Part shown: piece by piece, positions 12,873-32,286 of the stretch
Layout of the letters: the number at the start of each line of letters is the position of its first letter
Position numbering within the stretch: the first letter of the stretch is position 1
Assembly: GCF_026343115.1 (NCBI RefSeq)
Contig: NZ_JAPEMC010000002.1
Coordinates: 682,001 to 746,000, forward strand
Direction of reading: 5' to 3'
DNA length: 64,000 nucleotides
From: Streptomyces sp. NBC_00102
Lineage (GTDB): Bacteria > Actinomycetota > Actinomycetes > Streptomycetales > Streptomycetaceae
Translations under genes and position numbers: made by a program
The notes under the pieces: generated by a model
What the model was told of the DNA's origin: nothing
Database searches by the model: none
What the model saw: the letters and a program-made list of their open reading frames with translations, nothing else

Positions 12873-14975
12873 ATGAAGCGGACCATACGCACGGCCGCGC
12901 TCACGGCCTGCGCGCTCATCGCCGCGCTCGGCCTGCCGGCCGGTGTCGCGCAGGCCGACACCGCCACGCCCCGCGTGGACCTGAGGGTGCTCGTGGTCAC
13001 CGACGGCGGCCCGGCGGCTGAGGCCATCGAGGCCGAACTCGACGGCGAGGGAACTCCCTACACCGAGGTCGACCTGAACTCCGCGTCCAGGCCCACCATC
13101 GACGCGGCGTTCCTCGCGGACACGGTGGACGGCCGCCCGCGGGCCAAGTTCCAGGCGGTCGTGCTGCCCAACGACAACCCGTTCGCCACGGGTTCGGCGG
13201 AAATGGCCGCACTGGCCGCCTACGAGCAGACCTACGCGATTCCCCAGGTGGACGCCTACACCTACGCGCGCCCCGAAGTCGGTCTGCAGTACTACGTCTA
13301 CGGCGGCTACGCCGGCAGTCTCGACGGCGTCACCGCGGGGGTGACCGACGCGGGCCTGGCCGGCCCGTTCGGCTACCTCGGCGGATCGGTGCCGTTCGAG
13401 GACAACGACGCCTCGGTGGGAGAGAGTTACGGCTATCTGGCGGTCCCCCTCGTGGGCGCCGACTTCACCACGTACGTCGACGCCCCCGTGCCCGGTTCCA
13501 CCGGCCGGGCCTCCCTGGTGGGCGAATACCGGCACGACGGACGGCGCGAACTGGTCGTCGGCTTCGTCTACAACCAGTACCAGCAGCAGTTCAAGCTGCT
13601 CGCCCGCGGCATCGTGGACTGGATGACCGACGGCATCCATCTCGGGGCGTCCCACAACTACTTCGCGGTCCACGTGGACGACATCTTCGCCGCCGACGAC
13701 CGCTGGAACAGCACGTACAACTGCACGCCCGGCGATGTCGACTGCACGAACCCCGGCGCCACCGAGTCGACGATCCGCATGACCTCATCGGACGTGACCT
13801 ACGCCAAGTCCTGGCAGGAGTCGCACGACTTCACCCTCGACTTCGCCTACAACGCCCTCGGCAGCGAGGACTACAAGGAAGAGCACGACGGCTCGGACCC
13901 GCTGGCCACCTCTCTGATCGCCGACAAGAACGACTTCCGTTGGGTCAACCACACCTACTCGCACGCGTTCCTCGGCTGCGTTCAGAACACCACCGTCGTC
14001 CCCTGGGTGTGCGCGACCAACCCGAACGGCTCCACCAAGTGGGTCTCCCAGGCGGACATCTCCGACGAGATCTCGACCAACGCCGCCTGGGGTCAGGCGA
14101 AGGGCCTGCCCATCGACAGCTCCGAGCTGATCACCGGTGAGCACTCCGGCTTCTTCGTCACCCCGCAGCAGCCCGTCGACAACCCGAACCTCGGCCCGGC
14201 CTTCACTGCCAACGGCATCCAGTGGGCAGGTTCCGACAACTCCCGCGACCCGCAGCAGCGCCAGGTCGGCTCCGCGCTCACCGTGCCCCGCTACCCGCTG
14301 AACATCTACTACAACGCGGGTACCAAGGCCGACGAGGTCGACGAGTACAACTACATCTACGGCAGCCGGGCCCAGGGCGGCAGCGGCATCTGCGACGACA
14401 ACCCCGCCACCACCACCTGCCTCGCGTCCCCGCTGTCCCTCACCACCGGATTCGACGACTACATCGTGCCGCTGGAGAGCCGCCAGGCACTCGGTCACGT
14501 CCTGGGCAACGACCCGCGGCCGCACTACGTGCACCAGTCCAACCTGACCGAGGACCGGCTGCTCTACCCCGTCCTGACCTCGGTTCTCTCCCAGTACCGG
14601 GCCCTCTACGCCGACAACGCCCCGGTCGTGAACCTGCGTCAGAAAGACATCGGCACCGAGCTCCAGCGCCGCGCCGCCTGGAAGACCGCCCTGTCCGCCG
14701 GCACGGTCACCGCCTACCGCATCGGTGACGACGTGACCGTCCAGGCGCCCTCGGGCACCCAGGTCACCGTGACCGCACCGGCCGGCACCACCCTCGGCGG
14801 CTCCGCGTACGGGACGGCCTACGCCGGCGAGCGGTCCGGCTGGACGGCGTCCACGGGTGCCGCGCTCGCCCTGACCCTGCCCGCCCCGGCCGTCACGGCG
14901 GACGGGACGCCCGCTCCGGCCGACACCACGTCCACGGCTCCCGGGACGACGCTCCCCGCGGGCCTCACCGAGTAG
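12873..14975 (+). CDS. Secreted Agd3-like polysaccharide deacetylase (CE18/CBM87-type)
   Basis: 700 aa from the ATG at 12873. Residues 1-29 are a signal peptide (cleavage near AQA-D). The N-terminal ~230 residues are beta-rich and fit the carbohydrate-binding part of Agd3 proteins. The deacetylase part shows the metal triad pattern: HVDDIF (Asp269/270) and NHTYSH (His360, His364). A Pro/Thr-rich tail follows, with no membrane anchor. Fungal Agd3 partly N-deacetylates galactosaminogalactan so that it sticks to surfaces. It is the first gene of a co-directional run with PelF-, GH135- and GH114-like genes, which supports a galactosamine-polymer role. Substrate is inferred. Confidence 0.82.
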   Translation: MKRTIRTAALTACALIAALGLPAGVAQADTATPRVDLRVLVVTDGGPAAEAIEAELDGEGTPYTEVDLNSASRPTIDAAFLADTVDGRPRAKFQAVVLPNDNPFATGSAEMAALAAYEQTYAIPQVDAYTYARPEVGLQYYVYGGYAGSLDGVTAGVTDAGLAGPFGYLGGSVPFEDNDASVGESYGYLAVPLVGADFTTYVDAPVPGSTGRASLVGEYRHDGRRELVVGFVYNQYQQQFKLLARGIVDWMTDGIHLGASHNYFAVHVDDIFAADDRWNSTYNCTPGDVDCTNPGATESTIRMTSSDVTYAKSWQESHDFTLDFAYNALGSEDYKEEHDGSDPLATSLIADKNDFRWVNHTYSHAFLGCVQNTTVVPWVCATNPNGSTKWVSQADISDEISTNAAWGQAKGLPIDSSELITGEHSGFFVTPQQPVDNPNLGPAFTANGIQWAGSDNSRDPQQRQVGSALTVPRYPLNIYYNAGTKADEVDEYNYIYGSRAQGGSGICDDNPATTTCLASPLSLTTGFDDYIVPLESRQALGHVLGNDPRPHYVHQSNLTEDRLLYPVLTSVLSQYRALYADNAPVVNLRQKDIGTELQRRAAWKTALSAGTVTAYRIGDDVTVQAPSGTQVTVTAPAGTTLGGSAYGTAYAGERSGWTASTGAALALTLPAPAVTADGTPAPADTTSTAPGTTLPAGLTE

Positions 14976-15088
14976 GCGCACACGCCCCGATGACCGACCG
15001 GCGCGAAGCAGCGCCCGTGGTCCTGGCCGGCCCCGCCGGCCAGGACCCGCTCGATCCCACCCCACACCTCGGCCGTGGAGCCCCAGCC

Positions 15089-16690
15089 ATGCACGCTCAA
15101 CCGGGCGGGCGCCGTACCGGCGCCGCGCACGTCACCCTGCTCACCGAAGGCACCTACCCGCACAGTCACGGCGGCGTCAGTGTCTGGTGCGACCAACTCG
15201 TCCAGGGAATGCCCGACATCGACTTCGACGTCATCGCCGTCACCGGAACCGGACGCGAACCACTGGTGTGGGACCTGCCCGCACAGGTGTCCCGGGTCAG
15301 CTCCGTCCCCATGTGGGGAGACCCGCCCGAGGGGCGGGCCCCGCGCGGCCGGGCCCGTACCCGGCTCTCCGAGGCATGGGAGCGGTTCCTGACCGCCCTC
15401 GTCGACCCGTCCGCCGAGAGCGGGTTCGCACCCGCCCTCTACACCATGGCGCGCGCCGCCTCGGCCGGCGTGCTCAGCCCGTTCCTGCGCGGCGACGCCG
15501 CCATCGGCGTCCTGACCTCGGTGTGGAACAGGCCGGGGCTCGCCATCCGCGAGTCCGGACCGAGCCTGCACGACGCCCTGACCGCCGTCTCCCTCCTCGA
15601 GCACGCGCTGCGCCCGCTCTCCGCGGAGCTCCCCGAGCGGGGGGTGGCCCACGCCGTCAGCGGCGGAGTGGCGGCCCTGCCCGGCCTCGCCGCCCTCGAA
15701 CGGCACGGCGTCCCGCTGCTGCTGACCGAGCACGGCGTCTATCTGCGCGAGCGCTACCTCGGCTACCGCACCGCCCCCTACCGCTGGCCCGTGAAAGCTG
15801 TCGTGCTGGGCTTCTTCCGGCTGCTCGCCGAGGAGACCTACCGACGCGCCTCCCTCGTCACCCCCGGCAACCAGTACAACCGGCTGTGGGAGGAACAGGG
15901 CGGCGCGGCCCCCGAGTCCATCCGCACCGTGTACAACGGGGTCGACCCGGCCGCCTTCCCGATGGCCGGACCGGAACCGCTGCGGCCCACGCTGAGCTGG
16001 GCCGGACGAGTCGACCCGATCAAGGACCTGGAGACGCTGATCCGGGCGTTCGCCCTGGTCCGCGAGGAGATCCCGGACGCCGGACTGCGGCTCTTCGGCG
16101 GCACTCCGCGCGGCGGCGAGGCGTACCGGGAGCGCTGCGAGGCGCTGGCCGCCGAACTCGGCCACGGCGACGCGGTGGTGTTCGAGGGGCGCGTCGACGA
16201 CATCAAGGACGCCTACGCGGCCGGGAACGTCGTCATGCTCTCCAGCATCAGCGAGGGCTTCCCGTTCACCCTGATCGAGGCCATGTCCTGCGGGCGGGCG
16301 ACCGTCTCCACGGACGTGGGCGGAGTGCGCGAGGCCGTCGGCGACACCGGACTGGTGGTGCCGCCGCGCGATCCGGCCGCGATGGCCGCCGCCGCACTGG
16401 AACTGCTGCGCGACGCCGGCCGGCGCCGCGCGATGGGGGAGGCGGCCCGGCTGCGGGTCGTCGAGCAGTTCACCCTGCGGCAGACCGTCGACACCTTCCG
16501 CGCGATTTACCTGGAGCTGCCGGACCTCGGCCCGCGCGACCAGGCCGGCCGGCAGGCCGGTACCCGGGACACCGGCACGACCGCCGCGCCGGCCGCCGCG
16601 CCCCGGCCCAAGGGCGCCGGAGGCGCCCACCGCCGTACGACGGGCACCCGCGCCGCCGTTTCCGCCGCACCGAGGAGCATGGCCGGATGA
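15089..16690 (+). CDS. pelF: PelF-like GT4 glycosyltransferase
   Basis: 533 aa from the ATG at 15089 (GGAG eight bases upstream); the frame is open to an ATG at 14990, but the extra 33 residues look non-coding. The N-terminal LLTEGTYPHSHGGVSVW (about residues 17-33) is the hallmark of PelF, the cytosolic glycosyltransferase of Pel synthesis that uses UDP-GalNAc/GlcNAc. The C-terminal Rossmann half carries SWAGRVDPIKDLETLI and the donor-binding E-x7-E region SEGFPFTLIEAMSCG. The stop overlaps the next start (ATGA at 16687). An Ala/Pro-rich tail of ~45 residues is extra. Confidence 0.88.
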   Translation: MHAQPGGRRTGAAHVTLLTEGTYPHSHGGVSVWCDQLVQGMPDIDFDVIAVTGTGREPLVWDLPAQVSRVSSVPMWGDPPEGRAPRGRARTRLSEAWERFLTALVDPSAESGFAPALYTMARAASAGVLSPFLRGDAAIGVLTSVWNRPGLAIRESGPSLHDALTAVSLLEHALRPLSAELPERGVAHAVSGGVAALPGLAALERHGVPLLLTEHGVYLRERYLGYRTAPYRWPVKAVVLGFFRLLAEETYRRASLVTPGNQYNRLWEEQGGAAPESIRTVYNGVDPAAFPMAGPEPLRPTLSWAGRVDPIKDLETLIRAFALVREEIPDAGLRLFGGTPRGGEAYRERCEALAAELGHGDAVVFEGRVDDIKDAYAAGNVVMLSSISEGFPFTLIEAMSCGRATVSTDVGGVREAVGDTGLVVPPRDPAAMAAAALELLRDAGRRRAMGEAARLRVVEQFTLRQTVDTFRAIYLELPDLGPRDQAGRQAGTRDTGTTAAPAAAPRPKGAGGAHRRTTGTRAAVSAAPRSMAG

Positions 16691-18144
16691 GCGGGCCGAT
16701 ATCCCTCGAACCCGGCGGCCCCGAGCAGGAGACGCTCGCCATCCGGCTGGCCGACACCCGCCGGAGCGTCCGCAAGGTGTCGGACGACCACACGGTGCTC
16801 CTCGACACCCGCCGGATCGTCCGGCGCGTGTCGGCGGACCACACGATGGCCCTGCGGATCCCCCGCTTCCAGCCCGACGAGGAAGCCGTCAGCATGCTGG
16901 CGGCCGACCTCGCGGAACGGGTCGGGCCCGCGGTGCACCCGTACGAGGTCGCCGCGCTGCTGGAGTCCGAGGGCCTGACCGCCTCGCTGATCCAGGAACG
17001 CTACGGCCACCCCAACCTGTTCTCGCTGGCGACCGCCCTGTACGAACGGGTACCGCGCACCTTCCCGCAGCCGGCCCTGCCGGCCGACCCGTGGCGGCCC
17101 GACACCCTGCGGTGTCTGCTGCGCGGCGCGCTGTTCGCGCTGCCCGGCCTGGCGTTCCTGCTGACCGCCCCGCTCTGGAACGCGGGCGGGCACACCACGA
17201 CCCTGGTCGTCGCGGGCCTGTTCTCCTGGGCCTGGGGACAGGCACTGGGCCACCGGGCACATCTGCGGATGGCGACCGGCCGCCGCGAGGCGGGCCGCAC
17301 CCTGCTGCTCGGCGCGCCGCTCGGGGCCGTACTGGCCACGGCCACGGCCGGTGCCCAGGACGGCTTCGGCCCAGTGACCCTGGTCGCGGGGGCGCAGTCC
17401 GTGTACCTCGCCGCGGCCGGCGCACTGCTGGTGCTGGGCCGGGAGCGGCTGCTGCTGGCCGCGCTGAGCCCGCTGATCGTGGGAGCCGCCGTCCTGCCGT
17501 GGTGGGAGCCGGGCAAGGAACTGCGGGCCGGCCTGCCGCTGCTGGCACTCCTGGCCACACTGGTGGTCTGCGGAGCGGCCCTGCGGTCCTGCCTGCGCAC
17601 ACCCCCGCAGACCACCGGGCGCCGCCCGAAGCTGCTGTGGTCCCTGCCGTACGGTCTGTTCGGCCTGGCGGCCGGCACGCTGGTGCTGCTGGAGGGCAAG
17701 GTCAACGCGTACGCGGTGATCGTGCTGACGGTGAGCATGGGCCCCGCGGAGTGGCTGCTGTACCGCTACCGGGGCATGTCGGTGGCGGCGCTGCGCGCCA
17801 CGGCGACACCCGCCCGGTTCCTGCTGCGCTCCACCGGCGTCCTCGCCCTGTGCCTGCTCATCTATCTGGGCCCGCTCTTCCCGGCCGCACTCCTCAGCAA
17901 GGCGGACCCGGCCACCCTGCTCACCCTCGCGGCCACGCTGTGGACGGCCCTGCTGCTGCAGGCGTTCGGCGCGGCCTGGCCGGCCGCGACGATCTGCCTC
18001 CTGGCGGCCGGCACCGCGGCGCTCGTCACCCGGCTCGAACTGCCACCGGGCGACGCGATCCTGCCGCTGAGCTGTTGCGGGGCCGCGCTCCTGCTGATCG
18101 TGTGCGCCCTGCGCATGCTCGGCCGCCCGTCGCCCCACGCCTGA
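16687..18144 (+). CDS. Polytopic membrane protein of the polysaccharide locus (PelG-like role proposed)
   Basis: 485 aa. The first ~110 residues are soluble and contain a duplicated 14-residue motif, DTRRxVRxVSxDHT (residues 23-36 and 40-53). From about residue 130 to the end there are roughly ten or more hydrophobic segments, separated by short charged loops. In Pel clusters pelF is followed by pelG, a 12-segment membrane partner for synthesis and export. Position and topology fit that role, but I do not see a clear PelG sequence signature, so the call rests on context. Translation is coupled to pelF by ATGA. Confidence 0.65.
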   Translation: MSGPISLEPGGPEQETLAIRLADTRRSVRKVSDDHTVLLDTRRIVRRVSADHTMALRIPRFQPDEEAVSMLAADLAERVGPAVHPYEVAALLESEGLTASLIQERYGHPNLFSLATALYERVPRTFPQPALPADPWRPDTLRCLLRGALFALPGLAFLLTAPLWNAGGHTTTLVVAGLFSWAWGQALGHRAHLRMATGRREAGRTLLLGAPLGAVLATATAGAQDGFGPVTLVAGAQSVYLAAAGALLVLGRERLLLAALSPLIVGAAVLPWWEPGKELRAGLPLLALLATLVVCGAALRSCLRTPPQTTGRRPKLLWSLPYGLFGLAAGTLVLLEGKVNAYAVIVLTVSMGPAEWLLYRYRGMSVAALRATATPARFLLRSTGVLALCLLIYLGPLFPAALLSKADPATLLTLAATLWTALLLQAFGAAWPAATICLLAAGTAALVTRLELPPGDAILPLSCCGAALLLIVCALRMLGRPSPHA

Positions 18145-18313
18145 CACCCCACCCACCCGTCGCACCGCGCCCGGCCCGGGGCACCCCAGCCCGGCGGGCC
18201 GGTGCGCCCATGGACGTACCCGCTCCCGTGGCACGACCGCACCGCACGCGGCTCCTCTGCCACGCGGCCACCGCGACCGGCACCCGCCCCGACACTCCGG
18301 AAGGACCACTCAG

Positions 18314-19315
18314 TTGACCTCCGCACCACTCGCCGCCGTCACCGGCGCCGAAGGATTCATCGGCTCCCACCTCACCGAGGCCCTGGTCGCCCGGGGGTAC
18401 CGGGTGAGGGCCATGGCCCAGTACAACTCCTTCTCCTCCTACGGCTGGCTGGAGACCCTCTCCGCCGACGTGCTCGACCAGGTCGAGATCGTCCTCGGTG
18501 ACGTCCGCGACCCCGGATCCGTCCGCGGCCTCCTGGAAGGCGCCGACGTCGCCTTCCACCTCGCGGCGCTGATCGCGATCCCGTACTCCTACCAGGCACC
18601 GCACAGTTACGTGGACACCAACGTCACCGGCACCCTCAACGTGCTGGAGGCCGTCCGCGCCCTGGGTACGCCCCGGCTGGTGCACACTTCCACCAGCGAG
18701 ACGTACGGCACCGCGCAGACCGTGCCGATCACCGAGGACCACCCCATCAACACCCAGTCCCCGTACGCGGCTTCGAAGGCCGGCGGCGACCGTCTCGCCG
18801 ACAGCTACCACGCCAGCTTCGGCACCCCCGTGGTGACGCTGCGCCCGTTCAACACCTTCGGCCCGCGCCAGTCGATGCGCGCGGTCATCCCCACCGTGAT
18901 CGGCCAGGTCGCCGCCGGGGAGACCACCATCACGCTGGGCGACCTGCGCCCCACCCGCGACTTCACCTTCGTCAAGGACACCGCGCAGGCGTTCCTGGCG
19001 GTGGGCACCGCGCCCGCCGAGAAGGTCGTCGGCCGCACCCTGAACGCCGGTACCGGCGGAGAGATCTCGGTCGGCGACCTGGTCGGCCTGATCGGAAAGG
19101 TGATGGACTCGCCGCTCGACGTCCGCGAGGACACCGCCCGCATCCGGCCCGCCAACTCCGAGGTGATGCGCCTGGTCGCCGACGCGAGCCGGCTCACCGG
19201 GGCCACCGGCTGGACGCCCGCGCACAGCCTGGAGGAAGGGCTTGCGCAGACCGTCGAGTTCTTCCGCGAACCGTCCAATCTGGCCCGCTACAAGACCGGC
19301 ATCTACAACATCTGA
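18314..19315 (+). CDS. NAD-dependent sugar-nucleotide 4,6-dehydratase/epimerase (SDR)
   Basis: 333 aa from a TTG start with GGAAGGA about ten bases upstream. The extended-SDR features are the Rossmann loop TGAEGFIG near the N-terminus, the catalytic YAASK tetrad segment, and the substrate-binding segment RPFNTFGPRQSMRAVIP. The overall pattern resembles LegB/GDP-mannose dehydratase-like enzymes acting on UDP- or GDP-sugars. It sits 170 bp after the membrane protein gene and presumably supplies a sugar nucleotide for the polymer. The exact substrate cannot be read from sequence. Confidence 0.85.
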   Translation: MTSAPLAAVTGAEGFIGSHLTEALVARGYRVRAMAQYNSFSSYGWLETLSADVLDQVEIVLGDVRDPGSVRGLLEGADVAFHLAALIAIPYSYQAPHSYVDTNVTGTLNVLEAVRALGTPRLVHTSTSETYGTAQTVPITEDHPINTQSPYAASKAGGDRLADSYHASFGTPVVTLRPFNTFGPRQSMRAVIPTVIGQVAAGETTITLGDLRPTRDFTFVKDTAQAFLAVGTAPAEKVVGRTLNAGTGGEISVGDLVGLIGKVMDSPLDVREDTARIRPANSEVMRLVADASRLTGATGWTPAHSLEEGLAQTVEFFREPSNLARYKTGIYNI

Positions 19316-19397
19316 CTGATCATCACATGTGACTGTTCGTCATCTTCAATTCGTCACATCCAGTTCGTCACAACGAACGAACGAGGGGGGAACCACC

Positions 19398-20111
19398 ATG
19401 CACGTCGTCATTCTGGCCGGTGGCAAGGGCGTCCGGCTGCGGCCCTACACGACCGCGCTGCCCAAGCCGCTGGTACCCATAGGCGATCAGCACACGATCC
19501 TGGAGATCGTGCTGCGCCAGCTCGCCACCGCCGGCTTCACCTCCTGCACGCTCGCCATCGGCCATCTCGGCGAGATCATCCGCGCCTACGTCGGCGACGG
19601 CTCCCAGTGGGGCCTGCGGATCGACTACGCCACCGAGGAGAACCCGCTGGGCACCATGGGCCCGCTCCTCAACCTGCGCGACCGGCTGCCCGAGTCGTTC
19701 CTCGTGATGAACGGCGACGTCCTCACCGACCTCGACTACGCCGAGGTGCTCTCCACCCACCGCTCCGCCGGTGCCCCGCTGACCATCGCCACCTACGCCC
19801 GCAAGGTGCACATCGACTTCGGTGTGCTGACCACGGACGACAGCAGGGTCGTCGCCTTCACCGAGAAGCCCAGCATGGACTACCGGGTCTCGATGGGCGT
19901 GTACGGTCTGTCCCGGTCGACCCTCGACAGCTACACCGCCGGCCTGCCGCTCGGCTTCGACGAACTCGTCCTCGACCTGCTGAAGGCCGGAAATCCGCCG
20001 CACGCCTACGAGTTCGACGGATACTGGCTGGACATCGGCCGCCCGGACGACTACGACCGGGCCAACGCCGAATTCACCACCCGCAAGTCGCTGCTGCTCA
20101 AGGGAGCCTGA
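19398..20111 (+). CDS. Sugar-phosphate nucleotidyltransferase
   Basis: 237 aa. The ATG at 19398 has GAGGGGGG ahead. The nucleotide-binding loop is VILAGGKGVRLRPYT with KPLVPIG following, and the metal-binding strand is FLVMNGDVLTDLDY. These define the NTP_transferase family (glucose- or mannose-1-phosphate nucleotidyltransferases). The protein ends soon after the GYWLDIGRPDDY motif, so it lacks the extra C-terminal beta-helix or acyltransferase domain of longer members. In this locus it probably activates a hexose 1-phosphate. Confidence 0.9.
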   Translation: MHVVILAGGKGVRLRPYTTALPKPLVPIGDQHTILEIVLRQLATAGFTSCTLAIGHLGEIIRAYVGDGSQWGLRIDYATEENPLGTMGPLLNLRDRLPESFLVMNGDVLTDLDYAEVLSTHRSAGAPLTIATYARKVHIDFGVLTTDDSRVVAFTEKPSMDYRVSMGVYGLSRSTLDSYTAGLPLGFDELVLDLLKAGNPPHAYEFDGYWLDIGRPDDYDRANAEFTTRKSLLLKGA

Positions 20112-20119
20112 CCCCCGCC

Positions 20120-21052
20120 ATGCGCATTCTCGTCCTGGGCTTCACCGGCTTCCTGGGCGGCCACGTCGTCGAGCACCTGCGCACCCTCCCGGGTGTGCGG
20201 GTGCTCGGCGCGGGCCGCTCCGAGGCCGCGGAGTTCGATCTCGACCTGGCCGGCGACAGCGTCAAGCGGTTGGCGAAGACCCTGGAAGCGGCGGCACCGG
20301 ACGTCGTGATCAACTGCGCCGGAGCCACCGGCGGCGACGCGGTCACCCTCGCGGAGGTCAACTCCCGTGGTACCGCTGCCCTGTGCGCGGCGATGCAGCT
20401 CGCCGCCCCGGCCGCCCGGCTGGTCCACCTCGGATCGGCCGCGGAGTACGGGCCCGGCACGCCGGACGTCTCCATCACCGAATCAGCCCCCACCCACCCG
20501 CTCTCCCCGTACGGCGCCACCAAGCTCGCCGCCACCGTCACCGTGGCCACCTCGGGCCTCGACGCGGTGGTGCTGCGGGTGGGCAACCCGGTGGGTGCCC
20601 GTGCCCCGCTGGCCGGACTCCCCGGCCGGATCGCCGCCCTGCTGAGGGCAGCCGCAGGCGACCGTGACGCGGTGCTGCCGCTGGGCGACCTGTCGGCGTA
20701 CCGCGACTTCGTGGACGCCCGGGACGTGGCGCGGGCCGTCGGCCTCGCGGTGATCGCGGAGGGACCGCTGCCGCCGGTGCTGAACATCGGCGGCGGACGG
20801 GCCGTGCCGGTACGGTCGCTGGTGTACCGGCTGGCCGAACTGGCAGCGTTCCAGGGGCGCATAGAAGAGAGCTCCGACGGCTCCGCGCGCTCCGCCGCGG
20901 TGTCCTGGCAGTGCTCCGACACCTCCCTTGCCGCCTCGGCCCTGAACTGGCGGCCCGCGTACTCGCTCGGCGATTCCCTTGCCGACCTGTGGGCGGCCAC
21001 CGCGCCGCACGACGAGGGCACGCCGGGCCGAGAGGGCGACAGCGCGCCGTGA
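20120..21052 (+). CDS. NAD-dependent epimerase/dehydratase (SDR)
   Basis: 310 aa; ATG eight bases after the nucleotidyltransferase stop. The glycine-rich loop LGFTGFLGG starts the fold, LGSAAEYG leads to the catalytic Ser strand, and SPYGATK holds the Tyr-x3-Lys pair. It is a second, distinct SDR in the same operon, consistent with a two-step sugar conversion (for example 4-epimerisation or reduction). Its stop overlaps the next start as GTGA. Confidence 0.85.
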   Translation: MRILVLGFTGFLGGHVVEHLRTLPGVRVLGAGRSEAAEFDLDLAGDSVKRLAKTLEAAAPDVVINCAGATGGDAVTLAEVNSRGTAALCAAMQLAAPAARLVHLGSAAEYGPGTPDVSITESAPTHPLSPYGATKLAATVTVATSGLDAVVLRVGNPVGARAPLAGLPGRIAALLRAAAGDRDAVLPLGDLSAYRDFVDARDVARAVGLAVIAEGPLPPVLNIGGGRAVPVRSLVYRLAELAAFQGRIEESSDGSARSAAVSWQCSDTSLAASALNWRPAYSLGDSLADLWAATAPHDEGTPGREGDSAP

Positions 21053-21711
21053 GCCTCCTCGTCCCCCTGTACGTGCACCCCGCCGAGGACCCCGGCGCCT
21101 GGCACCGGCTGATCACGGCCGCCGACCGGACCTACGGCGTGGTGCTCAACCCGGCGAGCGGGCCCGGAACCGCGCCGGACCCCGCGTTCGCCGCCGCCGC
21201 CGAGGCGTTGCGCGCGGCGGGCGCGCTGGTCCTCGGCTACGTCGACACCGACTACGGCACCCGCGCACCGGACCTGATCCTCGCCGACTTCGACCTCCAC
21301 CGCGAGTGGTACGGGGTCGACGGCTGCTTCCTGGACCAGGTGACCTCCACCTCACAGGACCTGTCGGCGTGCCGCCGGCTGGTGCGCCGGGTCAGACGGG
21401 CCGGGGCGCGGACGGTGGTGCTGAACCCGGGTGTCCAGCCGGCCCCCGGCTACACCCGGATCGCCGACCTCACCGTCACCTTCGAGGGCCCCTGGTCGAC
21501 CTACGTCTCGGCCTTCACCCGGCCGCCCAAGGCGGGCAAGGAGCCCACGGACCGGCTCTGCCACCTCGTCTACGGGGTGCCGGAGGCCCTGGTGCCCCTC
21601 GCGGTACGGACCGCCACCGAGCGGGGGGCGGCCGTGTGCGGACCCGTCACGGGTGAACTCCCCAACCCCTGGGCGACGTTGTCGCCCGCACTGACCGGGA
21701 AGGAACGATGA
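21049..21711 (+). CDS. Spherulin-4 family glycoside hydrolase (GH135-like)
   Basis: 220 aa from the GTG at 21049. Family order is clear: LVPLYVHPAEDPGAWHRL, then VVLNPASGPG, VLGYVDTDYG, the GVDGCFLDQV strand that holds the catalytic-site Asp, and VLNPGVQPAPGY. Fungal Sph3 of this family is an endo-alpha-1,4-N-acetylgalactosaminidase needed for galactosaminogalactan production. No signal peptide is visible in this frame or its upstream extension, so the product seems cytosolic, unlike Sph3. The family's common DE pair reads DQ here. Coupled to both neighbours by overlapping codons. Confidence 0.8.
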   Translation: MSLLVPLYVHPAEDPGAWHRLITAADRTYGVVLNPASGPGTAPDPAFAAAAEALRAAGALVLGYVDTDYGTRAPDLILADFDLHREWYGVDGCFLDQVTSTSQDLSACRRLVRRVRRAGARTVVLNPGVQPAPGYTRIADLTVTFEGPWSTYVSAFTRPPKAGKEPTDRLCHLVYGVPEALVPLAVRTATERGAAVCGPVTGELPNPWATLSPALTGKER

Positions 21712-22691
21712 GCGACACCACCACGGCGAGCCGGCGGGCGGCCCTCGTGGCGCTGCTGACGGCTGCGGCGCTCACGGCGTGCGGCGGTGCGACGGACGAG
21801 GACCGGGCCGCGGGAGAAGGCGACCGGCCCGCCTCCTCGTCGAGCAGCACGGGTGCGTCCGGGCAGACCCCGCACGCCTCCCGGACCCCCACGACGTCCG
21901 CCACCCACCGCCCCTCGCCCGCGCCGTCGTCCCCCGTGCCCGCCCGGCCCACCCCGTCCGCGTCCGCGAAGGGCGGCTCCACGCGATCCGCCGGCTGGTG
22001 GCGTCCGAAGCCGGGACTGGACTGGCAGTGGCAACTCAACGGGCGCGCCGACCAGTCGGTGGACGTGCCCGTCTACGACATCGACGGTTTCGAGAACTCC
22101 GCCGCCGACGTGGCCCGGCTGCACCGGGCCGGCCGCAAGGCGATCTGCTACATCAACGTCGGCGCCTGGGAGGACTTCCGCTCCGACAAGGCCGCATTCC
22201 CCGCGTCCGTACTGGGATCCGGCGACGACTGGGACGGCGAACGGTGGCTGGACGTACGGCAGATCGCGGTGCTGAAGCCCCTCATGGCCAAGCGGTTCGA
22301 CATGTGCCGCGCCAAGGGGTTCGACGCGGTGGAACCCGACCTCGTCGAGGCGTACAACAACGACAGCGGCTTCGACATCACCGCCGCCGACCAGCTCGCG
22401 TACAACAGGATGATCGCGAAGCTGGCCCACGAACGCGGCATGGCCGTGGGCCTGAAGAACGACCTGCCGCAGGTCCCCGCACTGCTGAAGGACTTCGACT
22501 TCGCGGTCAACGAGGAGTGCGCCCAGTACGACGAGTGCGACGAACTGACGCCCTTCGTCGAGGCGGGCAAGGCTGTCTTCCACGTCGAATACGAGGTGCC
22601 CGCCTCCGACTTCTGCGCCGACTCGCGCCGACTGGGCCTCTCCTCCATGGAGAAGAAGCTCGAACTGGGGGTGTGGCGGAAGGCCTGCTGA
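21708..22691 (+). CDS. GH114 endo-alpha-1,4-polygalactosaminidase-like lipoprotein
   Basis: 327 aa; start overlaps the previous stop (ATGA). The signal ends in the lipobox LTACG, followed by a ~65-residue Ser/Pro/Thr linker. The GH114 barrel has PVYDIDGF, AICYINVGAWEDFR, WLDVRQ, GFDAVEPDLVEAY and MAVGLKNDLPQV, matching Ega3-type enzymes that cut deacetylated galactosamine polymers. The lipid anchor would place it on the outer face of the membrane, where it could trim or release the polymer. It is the last gene of the run. Confidence 0.88.
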   Translation: MSDTTTASRRAALVALLTAAALTACGGATDEDRAAGEGDRPASSSSSTGASGQTPHASRTPTTSATHRPSPAPSSPVPARPTPSASAKGGSTRSAGWWRPKPGLDWQWQLNGRADQSVDVPVYDIDGFENSAADVARLHRAGRKAICYINVGAWEDFRSDKAAFPASVLGSGDDWDGERWLDVRQIAVLKPLMAKRFDMCRAKGFDAVEPDLVEAYNNDSGFDITAADQLAYNRMIAKLAHERGMAVGLKNDLPQVPALLKDFDFAVNEECAQYDECDELTPFVEAGKAVFHVEYEVPASDFCADSRRLGLSSMEKKLELGVWRKAC

Positions 22692-27877: not shown

Positions 27878-29128
27878 TCATATTGCGGTTGTGACCTGGG
27901 GTTTCGTGGTCGCGCGGTAGTAGTTGGTCTCGTATTCGACGGGTGGGATGTGCCCTATTTCACCGTGGAGCCGGCGGTGGCAGTACCAGTCCACCCACTC
28001 CGCGGTAGCGAGCTCGACCTGGGAAAGAGTCCTCCAGGGGCGCCCCGGTTTGATCAGCTCGGTCTTGAACAGGCCGATCGCGGACTCCATGAGGGCGTTG
28101 TCGTAGGCGTCGCCGACCGAGCCGATCGAGGCGGCGATGCCGGCGGCTGCCAGGTGCTCGGCGAGCCGGAAGCTCGTGTACTGCGACCCGGCATCGGAAT
28201 GATGTATCAACTCGCCGCGCCGGTGGGGGTGTTCATCGCGGTCGCGTTGCCACAGGGCCATGTCCAGAGTGTCCAGGACGAGCTTGGTCTCCTTCGATGT
28301 GGCAGCGGACCAGCCGACGATCCGGCGGGAGAAGGTGTCGACGACGAAGGCGACGTAGACGACCCCCGACCAGGTCTTGACGTGGGTGAAGTCGGCGACC
28401 CAGTAGCGGTTGGGGGCCGACGCGACGAACTTGCGGTCCAGCAGGTCCGGTGCCCGCTCGACGCTGCTGTCCTGGATCGTGGTGATGACCTTCCTTCCGC
28501 GGACGGCGCCGGTGATGCCGAGCTCGCGCATGAGACGTTCGACGGTGCACCGGGCCACGGTGTGGCCCTGTCGGTGCAGCTCGCGCCAGACTTTCCTGGC
28601 GCCGTAGACACGGTAGTTGGCCTCGTGGACCTCGGTGATCGCGTCCTTGAGGACGGCGTCCCGCACCTGTCTGGCCGAAGGTTCGGCGGCGCGTTTCTTC
28701 GCCGCGTAGTAGGTGGAGGGGGCGATCTTGCAGTCGTGCTCGGCGAGTACGCGGCAGATCGGCTCGACACCGCCGAAGCGGGCCCGGTGCTCGTCGATGA
28801 ACGCTACGAGCGTGTGTGGCCGGTCGAGCTCGGCCGCGAAGAAAGACGCCGCAGCCTTCAGGATGTCGTTCGCGCGGCGCAATTCGGCGTTCTCCTTCTT
28901 CAACGCCTTCATCGCCGCGGACTCCTCCGACGTCGTGCCCGGACGCTGCCCGGAGTCGATCTCGTCCCGCCTGACCCAGTTCCGCAGGGTCTCGGCCGAA
29001 CCGATACCGAGCTTCTGGGCGACCGCCCGCACGGCAGCCGACTCGTTCGGGTAGTCACCGCGGACCTCGCCGACCATACGAACCGCTCGTTTGCGCAGCT
29101 CAACGGGATAAGAGGAAGGGCGTGCCAT
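27878..29128 (-). CDS. IS3-family transposase, OrfA and OrfB in one frame
   Basis: 416 aa. Residues 1-~55 are the OrfA helix-turn-helix, followed by a leucine-zipper-like segment (MKALKKENAELRRANDILKAA). From about residue 115 come OrfB's HTH_21 region and the DDE integrase core: ADFTHVKTW (first D), DAGSQYTS (second D) and the NALMESAIGLFKTELI helix (E). Most IS3 elements join OrfA and OrfB by a -1 frameshift; here the whole protein is in one open frame. All catalytic residues are present, so the element may be active. Confidence 0.92.
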   Translation of the reverse strand: MARPSSYPVELRKRAVRMVGEVRGDYPNESAAVRAVAQKLGIGSAETLRNWVRRDEIDSGQRPGTTSEESAAMKALKKENAELRRANDILKAAASFFAAELDRPHTLVAFIDEHRARFGGVEPICRVLAEHDCKIAPSTYYAAKKRAAEPSARQVRDAVLKDAITEVHEANYRVYGARKVWRELHRQGHTVARCTVERLMRELGITGAVRGRKVITTIQDSSVERAPDLLDRKFVASAPNRYWVADFTHVKTWSGVVYVAFVVDTFSRRIVGWSAATSKETKLVLDTLDMALWQRDRDEHPHRRGELIHHSDAGSQYTSFRLAEHLAAAGIAASIGSVGDAYDNALMESAIGLFKTELIKPGRPWRTLSQVELATAEWVDWYCHRRLHGEIGHIPPVEYETNYYRATTKPQVTTAI

Positions 29129-29151
29129 GACTCAATCCTTTCACGGAATTG

Positions 29152-29178
29152 AGTCTCCACTCGACCCGGGGCGGTTCA
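29152..29178. repeat. IS3 right terminal inverted repeat
   Basis: Reads inward (minus strand) as TGAACCGCCCCGGGT followed by CGAGTGGAGACT. Partner at 27851-27877; followed by TCGC, the second target-duplication copy. Confidence 0.88.
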
Positions 29179-30748
29179 TCGCCGACCGCAAGCTCTGGAT
29201 CTGTTCGTGGAGGAGGGCGAGGCGGGGGTGGTGGCCTGGGTGGATGTGTGCGTTCGGGCAGGCGAGGCAGAGCAGGAAGTCGGCTCCGCAGCCACCGCCC
29301 GGGGCAGGCCACGGGGTGGTGTCCTCGTCCGCACAATCCGCGGTCGCGGTCTGCCCGTGGGCCGGGTCCGGCCCCGGAGCGAGGTGGCCGCCGAAGAAGA
29401 TCTTCTTTGCCTGGTCGAGAGCTTCGAGCGCGCCGTCCTCGAAGATCTGCTGCGAGTCTTGCCGGACTTTCTGGTCGGGCAGCACGTAGATGCTCTCGTG
29501 AGTTCCTTGCGTGTGCTGGAGAGGCTTACCCTCTCGCGTCACCGTTGTACGTCGGATCTGACGGAAGGGCGAACCGCCCAGCTTGTGCTCGCTCGCCCAG
29601 GACTTCCCATCGACACCCGAAACTCCGAAAACGAGTGGGCCGACTACCGGAGGACGGTCCATGTCTCTGCGTCCGCCCTTCTGGCGAACCGCGCGGGCGG
29701 TCATCAACAGGTCTGTGCCTGGAGCCAGTTGCGAGGCCAGGAGTCGACCGTGGAGCGTGGCCTGCAGTGCCTGTGTGATCAATCGCCCTGGCGAGTCGGC
29801 CCCGGAGTCGGTGATGTTCTCCGTGGAAAACCAGCGGCCGTTCCCGGCCCGACGCTTCTCGACCTGCACGTGGTAGGTCACGTTCGTGGTCTCCGCGACC
29901 GACGGAGCCCTGGTCGGGGCCGGCATACGGTCGTAGACGGAGAGGTTCCAACCGAAGCGGTCGGTCAGCAGCACGGCCAGGGCAGTCAGCTCCGACGGGG
30001 TCAGGAACAGCCGGCCCCACGTGTGCTCGCTGTCGCGGCCGCCCAGCAATCCGCGGTTGGTGATGGCCTGTCGACCACTCGGCAGCTGCGTACGGGGCAC
30101 GTCCCCGACACGAGCCACATGGTCCAGCGCTTCCCCGAGCCGCCAGTCATGGCTGCCCTCATCCAGCGCTCCCGCCCGCCACCTCTCCAGCAGTTCACTG
30201 TTCTCCCGGATCCTGAGCCAGGCAGCCCGGAACTGACGGCCTGCTGCCAGCAGCACGTGCTCGCGTTCCGCCTCGTCGTAGGACTTCCTGACGGGCTTCG
30301 GTGCGGGAACGCGACGGGCCAGCTCCTCTGCGACCGGCCCTTCGCTCAACCGGGGGTAGCTGCGGAGTATCCGATGGACTACCCGCAGCGTGGTGCGACC
30401 GGTGTTCGTGCTGATGTTCTGCAGCCGCCAGCGCTTGAGCGTCGCCGCGTCCAGGCCGGTCAGATCCTCGGGAGGAGTGTCGAGACCGGAGATGAACTCG
30501 GCGAACACCTTCAGCCTGTTCCAGGCGGCTGTGGCGCTGTAATGGCTGGTCCACCTCACCTGCTGGGCAGCGAACACCGTTGCCAGGGAGCGCTGCATCG
30601 GCTCAGGAACCGGCAGGTCGGAGAAGGCGAAGTCCTTCCCATGACCAGCCTTGTTGACGATGGTGACCACCAGTCCGTTTGCGGCAAGCGGTGGCTCCGT
30701 CGTGAAGTCGGTCGGCGGCAGGACCGCCCGACGCCCGCGGCGGCTCAT
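29179..30748 (-). pseudogene. Tyrosine recombinase B, 5' part, interrupted by the IS
   Basis: The ATG at 30748 overlaps the stop of recombinase A (ATGA). This part codes for about 523 residues, including an N-terminal core-binding domain, FRQIRRTTVTREGKPLQHTQGTHESIYVLPD with the putative catalytic Arg and Tyr, and a Cys/His-rich tail (CGADFLLCLACPNAH) similar to that of recombinase C. At 29179 the frame runs into the IS and stops after a few foreign codons. The loss is only the last ~55 residues, beyond the catalytic Tyr, so some function could remain. Confidence 0.85.
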
Positions 30749-32286
30749 CGCTCGGCCGCCGGCAGCCGGTCGACGATGACGTCGATGTCCTGGATCCCGG
30801 CCGACTCTCTTGCGAGCCGCGCGAACACGCCGTCGATGTCCTCGACCTTGCCGTCGGGTTCCTCCGCCTCGGCCGTCGCCAGGATCGACTCCAGCTGCAA
30901 ATGCGCGACGGGAGCCAGGTAATGACGCTTGGTCGTCTCGACGTCCGCGTGCCCGAGGAGGGTCTTGACCAGCCACCAGGGGTCGCCGAACAGCATCGCG
31001 AAATCCCGGCGATCCGCCGCGGTCAATCCGAAGCGGGCCTCCATCAGCTGGTTCAGCACGATGAGCATGTAGAGCGCGAAGGAGTGACGCGCGGAGTGTG
31101 GGGTGGCGTACGGAGTCCGGCCCCGGACCTCTGCGGCTCGGAGGTTCCGGCCCACTTCCCGCTCGGCGGGGGTCAACAAAACCTCTTCGCAGCGCAGGTT
31201 CGCCGTGGTGAACACCGTGTTCCAACGGTCGGGAAGCATCGGCAAGCCCTGCTCGGTCAGCCACAGCCACGCAGGTTCCGGCCCCTCCGGGCCGTCAAGG
31301 AACAGCCACTGCCGTTCCCGCCAGCCCAGATGGGTCAAGTACTGATGGCCCTCGACACCCTCTCGGCCGACCCAGAACACTCGCGGTGCTCGGCCATGGG
31401 TCACCTTCGTGACCAGGCGCATCTGCTCAACCCGCTCGTAGCGGCCCATCTGCTGAGCGCGCTTCACCGCCAAAGCACGCTCCGACTGAACGTACGTTTC
31501 AACCTGCCCCAGGGCGTCCAACGAGGTGTAGAAGGTACGGCCGTTCTTCGACCGGGTCACCGCCCCGGCGAGCTGGCCGTGCTGGTAGCGCCCGTGCTGC
31601 AACCGCTGAGCGGGCAGCTCGAACGTCAGGAGGGACCCGCCTTCCTGTCGCCGAAGCCCCGAGCTCAAGATGAACTGCACGAACGAGGTATTACGGGCCT
31701 CGGTCCGCGCATCCCATCCCCAAGTCGGGACCCCATCACGGCCATGTCCGCGCAGCCCGACGTCCGACCACAGGCTCCACGTACGCGGTGTCAGCCACGA
31801 CACCCGGGCACTGACCGAGTCAGCCGCACGGTCCTCCCGCCGGGACGCGTCCACCGGCCGGGGGCTCACCCTCGCCCACTTGAACAGGCGGGTGAAGGCG
31901 GCGGCCTCACGGTTCCATTTCGACCCGCCGATTCGCTCGGGGTTCTGTGGAGCATCACAGCGCCAGGTCCTGTAGTTCAGCAGGTCCTGCTCGGAGGCCC
32001 GGAGCCAGTCGATCCCGCGCGAAGACAGGAAGGTCAGGAGGATCCGAATGTCCGTGGCGTAGTTCCGCTTCGTCTCCCGTGCAAGGAAGCGGAAGTGCTT
32101 TGAGAGAACGAACTCCAACAGGTCGCAGTCGATGGTGAAATCTGGAGCGATGAAGACAGGATCACCCGGCATCAAGCCGATCCGCTCGACCGCCCTCGGC
32201 AGGTCCTCGACCCCCAGCACTCCCGCTTCAGGAAGCGTCCCCCACCGGCCCGGGTCGGGCACCCACACCACACGCCACTCACTCAC
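30745..32286 (-). CDS. Tyrosine recombinase A of the transposon
   Basis: 513 aa from the GTG at 32286, with AAGGAG five bases upstream; the frame is open to 32316. Catalytic residues are intact: first Arg in LSSGLRRQEGG, HSARHSF (His-x2-Arg), and LLGHADVETTKRHYL with the His and nucleophilic Tyr. This is the first gene of the operon and starts 45 bp inside the right end of the transposon, like tnpA of Tn554. It overlaps recombinase B by ATGA. Confidence 0.9.
   Translation of the reverse strand: MSEWRVVWVPDPGRWGTLPEAGVLGVEDLPRAVERIGLMPGDPVFIAPDFTIDCDLLEFVLSKHFRFLARETKRNYATDIRILLTFLSSRGIDWLRASEQDLLNYRTWRCDAPQNPERIGGSKWNREAAAFTRLFKWARVSPRPVDASRREDRAADSVSARVSWLTPRTWSLWSDVGLRGHGRDGVPTWGWDARTEARNTSFVQFILSSGLRRQEGGSLLTFELPAQRLQHGRYQHGQLAGAVTRSKNGRTFYTSLDALGQVETYVQSERALAVKRAQQMGRYERVEQMRLVTKVTHGRAPRVFWVGREGVEGHQYLTHLGWRERQWLFLDGPEGPEPAWLWLTEQGLPMLPDRWNTVFTTANLRCEEVLLTPAEREVGRNLRAAEVRGRTPYATPHSARHSFALYMLIVLNQLMEARFGLTAADRRDFAMLFGDPWWLVKTLLGHADVETTKRHYLAPVAHLQLESILATAEAEEPDGKVEDIDGVFARLARESAGIQDIDVIVDRLPAAER

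Follow-up and report, generated by a model that had tools for sequence, protein, structure and literature searches.

Introduction

Can a streptomycete build a de-N-acetylated amino-sugar polymer of the kind known as galactosaminogalactan (GAG) in fungi and as Pel in bacteria, and if so from which sugars? The question is raised by eight genes of Streptomyces sp. NBC_00102 that lie on the plus strand at 12873-22691 of the 64,000-nucleotide stretch analyzed here (the window; host genome, 8.6 Mb). A first-pass annotation had read them as an operon-like run joining the full fungal GAG toolkit to part of a Pel synthase. The run itself is real: the open reading frames (ORFs) are where that annotation placed them, co-directional and tightly packed in the order AGD (predicted deacetylase), PELF (glycosyltransferase), MEM (membrane protein), SDR1 (short-chain dehydrogenase/reductase, SDR), NTP (nucleotidyltransferase), SDR2 (a second SDR), SPH (spherulin-4-like protein) and GH114 (predicted galactosaminidase), and the order is conserved in related loci. 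Third-position GC is high in all eight ORFs (0.89-0.94), overlaps of 4 bases occur at three of the junctions (PELF/MEM at 16687-16690, SDR2/SPH at 21049-21052, SPH/GH114 at 21708-21711), and the largest intergenic gap, from MEM to SDR1, is 169 bases.

Here we report that Streptomyces hold two separate operon lineages, type I, to which this locus belongs and which has a fixed trio of NTP, SDR1 and SDR2, and type II, which lacks the trio. The earlier proposal, that these actinomycete genes serve to make a de-N-acetylated amino-sugar polymer, is supported. Gene content and order, family membership, the conserved catalytic residues of the deacetylase and both hydrolases, the absence of PelG by profile and the two lineages are what the sequences show, and from these we infer polymer, export route, donor sugar, localization and function. 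On balance, we lean towards a synthase-dependent exopolysaccharide operon that works in the steps set out in the Discussion.

Results

Two operon lineages in Streptomyces

Conservation of the run was analyzed in 80 Streptomyces loci, the best 80 of 557 relatives and as such biased to close relatives of the window. The count was restricted to the 64 loci with at least 7.5 kb downstream, leaving aside 16 with less, and the order AGD-PELF-MEM-SDR1-NTP-SDR2-SPH was found in 63 of them, with GH114 following in 49 of those 63. At the remaining locus (L122) all seven genes match, MEM having been dropped by the script for overlap, and GH114 was not found. Among individual type I strains, Streptomyces sp. 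SirexAA-E (L173) carries the complete set of eight, whereas in S. griseofuscus DSM 40191 (L129) GH114 is missing. This conservation of gene order is far beyond chance.

An AGD match was present in 54 of 101 Streptomyces genomes, the one in G068 being weak and spanning 75 residues. We chose 40 loci (L023-L062) from these matches and examined five further genomes among the rest. Loci were typed by the presence or absence of the trio, except that two in which AGD stands alone (L047 and L058) were put with type II by sequence. Among the 20 loci with the AGD nearest that of the window, all but one have the full seven-gene type I order, and 13 of these 19 also show a GH114 match, at least a partial one; the exception, L029, is a contig end and was dropped from the AGD tree and from the comparison of AGD between types. 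The 20 type II loci (L043-L062) never carry the trio, while PELF and MEM are found in 18, SPH in 16 and GH114 in 13. In the AGD tree (support 99/97), the PELF tree (96/96) and a quick MEM tree (100), all loci with the trio group as one clade, and both types occur together in at least four genomes (G034, G038, G067 and G080).

The trio is tied to the type I operon. SDR1 orthologues (E<=1e-100) were found in 26 of the 101 genomes, and in 24 of them SDR1 shares its contig with an AGD match no more than 5 kb away; in G016 and G069 this AGD is truncated or broken. Twenty-five belong to a type I operon, whether intact, AGD-less (G095), with a truncated AGD (G016) or decayed (G069); for the 26th, in G099, both genes are at contig ends. 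The G095 operon (L096) has no AGD, and that of G016 (L097, with L047) keeps only the AGD C-terminal end; both genomes have AGD elsewhere, and the deacetylase may act in trans for these operons. In the decayed operon of G069 (L098), AGD, SDR2 and SPH are in pieces and PELF, MEM and NTP have no match. A complete type I operon also lies on a linear plasmid of Streptomyces californicus (NZ_CP070247.1, L185), near a non-ribosomal peptide synthetase.

Across the phylum, an AGD match was seen in 11 of 346 genomes and in 6 of 218 genera, Streptomyces included. A locus from another family (L089) has the order AGD-PELF-SPH-GH114 with, after PELF, an ORF that aligns with MEM at 24%. In another actinobacterial lineage, two loci (L085 and L086, from G111 and G140) have an Agd3-like gene after a genuine pelG, with a GAF-GGDEF protein upstream, and in L086 pelG is preceded by PelF; both are Pel operons with a CE18-type deacetylase.

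AGD is an Agd3-like deacetylase family member

AGD (12873-14975, plus strand, 700 amino acids) was assigned from profile matches and catalytic residues as an Agd3-like CE18 deacetylase with a CBM87-like N-terminal domain, and it has an apparent Sec signal peptide, read by eye. By itself the sequence matches weakly: it scores 24 bits against PF25115, below the 27.6 cut-off, and neither the single sequence nor the narrow profile A1 found Agd3 (6nwz) in the PDB. A profile built from 12 diverse AGD relatives (A7) finds 6nwz with E=1.9e-32 in two stretches; these span both domains, CBM87 and CE, and the motif-like segments line up. A distant relative, L087, scores 130 bits to Agd3_CE and 51 to CBM87, and PF25115 matches 7 of 14 AGD family members at E<=0.01; the search with PF25115 gave no match in the host genome nor in any control and is uninformative. 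The residues of motifs CM1 to CM4 (D269/D270, H360/H364, R473 and H554) are kept in all 41 aligned Streptomyces AGD sequences, and across the 12 diverse AGD rows the catalytic motifs are invariant except for a change of the CM3 Arg to Cys in L088. The AGD structure model (predicted local distance difference test score, pLDDT, 43.8) was too poor to use. From its sequence, AGD is a member of the Agd3-like CE18 family over both the CBM87 and CE domains, and a predicted deacetylase.

A PelF-type synthase with a membrane protein in the place of PelG

PELF (14990-16690, plus strand) is a PelF-type GT4 glycosyltransferase of 566 amino acids as called, although translation may in fact begin as many as about 33 codons downstream. 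It scores 178 bits against the PelF equivalog NF038011 (cut-off, 100) and 206 bits against DUF3492, so the identification of PelF by the first-pass annotation holds. Fifteen PELF positions separate types I and II, one of which falls inside the E-x7-E motif.

PelG, the other Pel gene named in the first-pass annotation, was not found by profile. MEM (16687-18144, plus strand) has no Pfam match; stray weak matches occur in single members of its family, the best to Acyl_transf_3 with an E-value of 0.0067. The PelG profile PF16933 found nothing in the host genome, MEM included, nor in any of 12 MEM family members, and as a control it matched in 1 of 14 genomes. Comparing a MEM profile with three actinobacterial PelG sequences gave an hhalign probability of 0.13, and we rejected MEM as a PelG by sequence.

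The predicted AlphaFold model of MEM, of modest quality (pLDDT 63), has about 12 transmembrane (TM) helices and a conserved N-terminal cytosolic helical domain at about residues 65-121. With Foldseek, the best 13 rows were MATE/MOP or WzxE exporters at weak E-values (best, 0.03), and with VIA-align 40 of the first 41 rows were named MATE/MOP, WzxE or MurJ, with Z to 14.4, the title of row 25 (5c6n), "protein A", being uninformative. PelG is described as a 12-helix protein of the MOP superfamily (PMC13254593). We cautiously call the fold of MEM MOP-like on the basis of this model, and MEM would be the counterpart of PelG by position and probable fold, without detectable homology, acting as the transporter. 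Out to distant relatives, 8 of the 12 invariant columns of MEM fall in residues 83-115 of the short cytosolic domain, and PELF could plausibly dock there.

A further nucleotide sugar predicted from the trio

SDR1 (18314-19315, plus strand, TTG start) is an extended SDR that resembles LegB, scoring 449 bits against TIGR04180, below the curated cut-off of 475. The signature [ST]SE...Y..K is present in 20 of 20 copies (TSTSETYG/SPYAASK), and its best PDB relatives are a mixture of 4,6-dehydratases and 4-epimerases. This signature is that of GDP-mannose 4,6-dehydratases, whereas GalE has [ST]...Y..K without the acid/base pair (PMC8987622), and LegB of Campylobacter jejuni dehydrates GDP-GlcNAc (PMC7439481). 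NTP (19398-20111, plus strand) is a predicted sugar-1-phosphate nucleotidyltransferase (PF00483, 136 bits; NF052502, 149 bits, below the cut-off of 440) nearest to mannose-1-phosphate guanylyltransferases, and its best PDB match is GDP-Man pyrophosphorylase beta (E 5e-29). SDR2 (20120-21052, plus strand) is an extended SDR without the dehydratase acid/base pair and could be a reductase or a 4-epimerase. Its motif is GSAAEYG..YGATK in the window, with GS[AS]AEYG in 20 of 20 copies, and its nearest specifically named PDB entries are 2pk3, a GDP-6-deoxy-4-ketohexose reductase, and 6x3b, followed by GalE.

A nucleotidyltransferase, a dehydratase and a reductase make up the textbook route to a nucleotide-bound 6-deoxy sugar. 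The fixed trio of type I predicts a further nucleotide sugar, judging by its enzyme families most simply a 6-deoxyhexose or 6-deoxyhexosamine, besides or instead of N-acetylgalactosamine (GalNAc). Two earlier claims lack support in the form in which they were made. The genes do not amount to a full fungal toolkit, there being no clear UDP-GalNAc 4-epimerase (SDR1 has a dehydratase signature and SDR2 is ambiguous) and synthase and transporter being separate genes. Nor is a reading of the trio as precursor supply for GalNAc specifically supported, as it is absent from all 20 sister loci and resembles a 6-deoxy-sugar set.

Two hydrolases, one apparently not exported

The relationships to CE18, GH135 and GH114 that the first-pass annotation had named are all supported by profile searches, for CE18 only through the diverse A7 profile. 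GH114 (21708-22691, plus strand) is a predicted Ega3-like endo-alpha-1,4-galactosaminidase with a lipobox, LTAC, read by eye. It scores 283 bits against PF03537, over the cut-off, and matches Ega3 (6oj1) with E=7e-57. Its Asp/Glu pair, D211/E269, is spaced by 58 residues, as is D189/E247 in Ega3. Only two GH114 positions separate the types at the thresholds used (L027 and L040, partial or misaligned, were dropped), and one of them adjoins the nucleophile: it is Leu in 12 of 12 type I copies (L212, EPDL) and Asn (EPDN) in 12 of 13 type II copies and in Ega3. These and the type-specific PELF residues are consistent with an altered polymer. A second GH114 gene lies elsewhere in the genome (G000:C1:1386796-1387440; L001, L101), and the 20 kb retrieved there contain none of the other operon genes.

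SPH (21049-21711, plus strand) is a predicted spherulin-4/GH135-like TIM barrel that scores 122 bits against PF12138 (Spherulin4; cut-off, 30.2) and matches Sph3 structures at E about 1e-12 (5c5g, 7.6e-13). The predicted nucleophile Asp and acid/base Glu (D96/E146) are kept in 36 of 36 copies, and the residue directly after the catalytic Asp is Gln or Arg in all 36 (Q97 in the window), where Sph3 has Glu. This position corresponds to E167, an important residue of Sph3. PMC12054363 is our source for the catalytic residues of Sph3 and Ega3; for Sph3 it gives Asp196, while the spacing points to 166.

SPH starts at or just before the first barrel strand, and in sequence none of the 36 copies has a convincing N-terminal signal or TM segment. 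Because our first survey took the start nearest to that of the window in other genomes, which could hide longer N-termini, we read the frames upstream to the previous stop. In 32 of 36, no stretch that follows a possible start exceeds a permissive hydrophobicity threshold. The other four (L026, L030, L033 and L037) reach 1.21-1.43 with an alternative N-terminus that overlaps the 3' end of SDR2 and is rich in Arg and Gly and mildly hydrophobic. The S. californicus protein as deposited has 220 amino acids and the same start. The lack of a convincing signal peptide suggests that SPH is probably cytosolic. Fungal Sph3 is membrane-bound and acts outside (PMC12054363), so the location of SPH likely differs. 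Of the modification and trimming claimed for the locus, the deacetylase and GH114 families stand, but trimming outside the cell by both hydrolases is doubtful.

Surroundings of the operon

A scan for sigma-70 promoters and terminators was uninformative (no promoter-like site, and three terminator-like ones where 2.2 would be expected), and the window contains neither a tRNA nor any Rfam match at gathering thresholds. At 277-2493 the minus strand encodes a predicted 738-amino-acid multi-domain protein with alginate lyase 2 and DPBB domains and a weak GH18 match. At 27878-32220, also on the minus strand, an insertion sequence-type transposase (rve, HTH_21), a 509-amino-acid unknown protein and a weakly phage-integrase-like protein stand in a row inside a dip in GC at 24-32 kb, likely the remnant of a mobile element.

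Discussion

In the exopolysaccharide mechanism that we favor, NTP, SDR1 and SDR2 would supply an activated sugar specific to the operon, the simplest candidate being a 6-deoxyhexose or a 6-deoxy-amino sugar bound to a nucleotide. PELF, a cytosolic GT4 enzyme, would polymerize an N-acetylated amino sugar from UDP-GalNAc and/or the extra sugar while docked on the N-terminal domain of MEM, which would pass the chain across the membrane as predicted for PelG. Outside, secreted AGD would strip some N-acetyl groups to leave the polymer cationic and adhesive, and its de-acetylated stretches would be cut by the GH114 lipoprotein. SPH, most likely cytosolic, may act at the synthase, cutting chains that have stalled or were mis-primed.

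The step that can most readily be read otherwise is the first one. NTP could make a UDP-N-acetylhexosamine that one of the SDRs, acting as a 4-epimerase, turns into UDP-GalNAc, so that the trio would only boost a precursor and the product would be the same plain alpha-1,4-linked polymer of GalNAc and galactosamine (GalN) as in type II. Characterized GH114, GH135 and CE18 enzymes do act on GalNAc/GalN polymers (PMC12054363, PMC7229062), PelF uses UDP-GalNAc in Pel systems (PMC12345266), SDR2 scores with GalE and has no dehydratase acid/base pair, and GalE entries are among the solved relatives of SDR1. However, the dehydratase signature is found in 20 of 20 SDR1 copies, the trio is missing from all 20 type II loci, at least four genomes hold both types, which would be odd for an identical product, and GH114 and PELF carry type-specific residues beside the active site; we regard a plain precursor as possible but the lesser prospect. 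The opposite extension is that Streptomyces make two Pel/GAG-like polymers, where the type I chain contains a 6-deoxy amino sugar (fucosamine or quinovosamine, for example) in place of galactosamine or in alternation with it, a MOP-type transporter replaces PelG, and a cytosolic GH135 protein serves as quality control of the synthase, a combination that we find rather unlikely as a whole. A distant relative speaks against too firm a conclusion on the trio: L088 (G298) holds in one run AGD with the Cys at CM3, PELF, MEM, NTP, SDR2, a nucleotide-sugar dehydrogenase and another SE-type SDR. This set, a third variant of the precursor genes, points to a uronic acid or pentose there.

The hydrolases allow two further explanations. 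With two hydrolase families and a deacetylase present, and a galactosaminidase known from Streptomyces griseus (PMC7229062), the locus could serve to degrade or remodel a foreign polymer, fungal GAG or Pel, and make none of its own. We consider this very improbable, since 19 of 20 type I loci and 18 of 20 type II loci encode, within the operon, both a PelF-type synthase and a membrane protein of 12 helices, and Pfam finds no sugar-uptake or sugar-kinase family among the eight genes, with MEM matching nothing. For SPH alone, export without a classical signal, or a role as a catalytically altered accessory that binds the polymer rather than cutting it, is a tentative alternative suggested by the Gln or Arg beside the nucleophile of every copy and by the membrane-bound state and outside action of Sph3 (PMC12054363). 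Yet the nucleophile and acid/base residues are kept throughout, no copy has a convincing signal or TM segment, and the deposited S. californicus protein has the same length and start; the synthase-side role of SPH within the exopolysaccharide mechanism remains the one we prefer.

If this mechanism is right, about half of streptomycetes (the 54 of 101 with an AGD match) could make a cationic, adhesive polymer of the GAG/Pel kind. It would stand beside the PNAG (poly-N-acetylglucosamine)-type polymer of MatAB, which is known to cause hyphal clumping (PMC5972031), and the operons would provide natural enzymes, perhaps differing in sugar specificity, for use as tools against Pel and GAG biofilms. 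The altered composition is a testable prediction from the trio. The locus would also extend the bacterial operons that PMC7229062 cites in favor of the fungal cluster having come from bacteria.

Comparison with known systems

The combination itself is not new: bacterial agd3 operons have been in print since 2020 and this kind of operon was already known (Bamford et al. 2020, PMC7229062). As far as the available part of that work goes, all of them have a glycosyltransferase and a multi-span membrane protein, GH114 is highly consistent, and spherulin-4 occurs in those of some Actinobacteria. The Streptomyces locus is alike in its Agd3 homologue, cytoplasmic glycosyltransferase, multi-span membrane protein, GH114 and spherulin-4; it differs in features that the same part of the text does not mention, namely, the NTP/SDR1/SDR2 trio, two lineages and an unexported spherulin-4. 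Among the works examined, in the portions available, this is the only one to describe GAG/Pel-type operons of Streptomyces, and the available text on Actinoplanes polysaccharide clusters (PMC13390465) holds no PelF, spherulin or galactosamin- term.

Like the GAG cluster of Aspergillus fumigatus and Neurospora crassa, the locus brings together relatives of Agd3, Sph3 (GH135) and Ega3 (GH114). The fungal cluster also holds a UDP-glucose 4-epimerase and the GAG synthase (PMC11356417); there, the synthase is a single transmembrane protein and the epimerase is Uge3, whereas in Streptomyces the trio is extra, and Sph3 is outside while SPH apparently is not. With the Gram-positive Pel operon pelDEA(DA)FG of Bacillus cereus it shares PelF, a membrane protein directly 3' of pelF and a separate deacetylase. 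Unlike that operon, it has a CE18 rather than a CE26 deacetylase, a membrane protein that is not PelG by sequence and two added hydrolases, and no PelD-type c-di-GMP receptor or regulator and no PelE family is found among the eight genes. The sister operon is that of type II Streptomyces loci (L043-L062), which has AGD-PELF-MEM-SPH-GH114 in the same order but lacks the trio, falls outside the type I clade and has EPDN (12 of 13) instead of EPDL in GH114. What appears to be new here, as read from sequence and a predicted model, is threefold: a lineage that has the trio and stands apart from the other one, a MOP-like protein in place of a PelG that is missing by sequence, and an apparently unexported GH135 protein.

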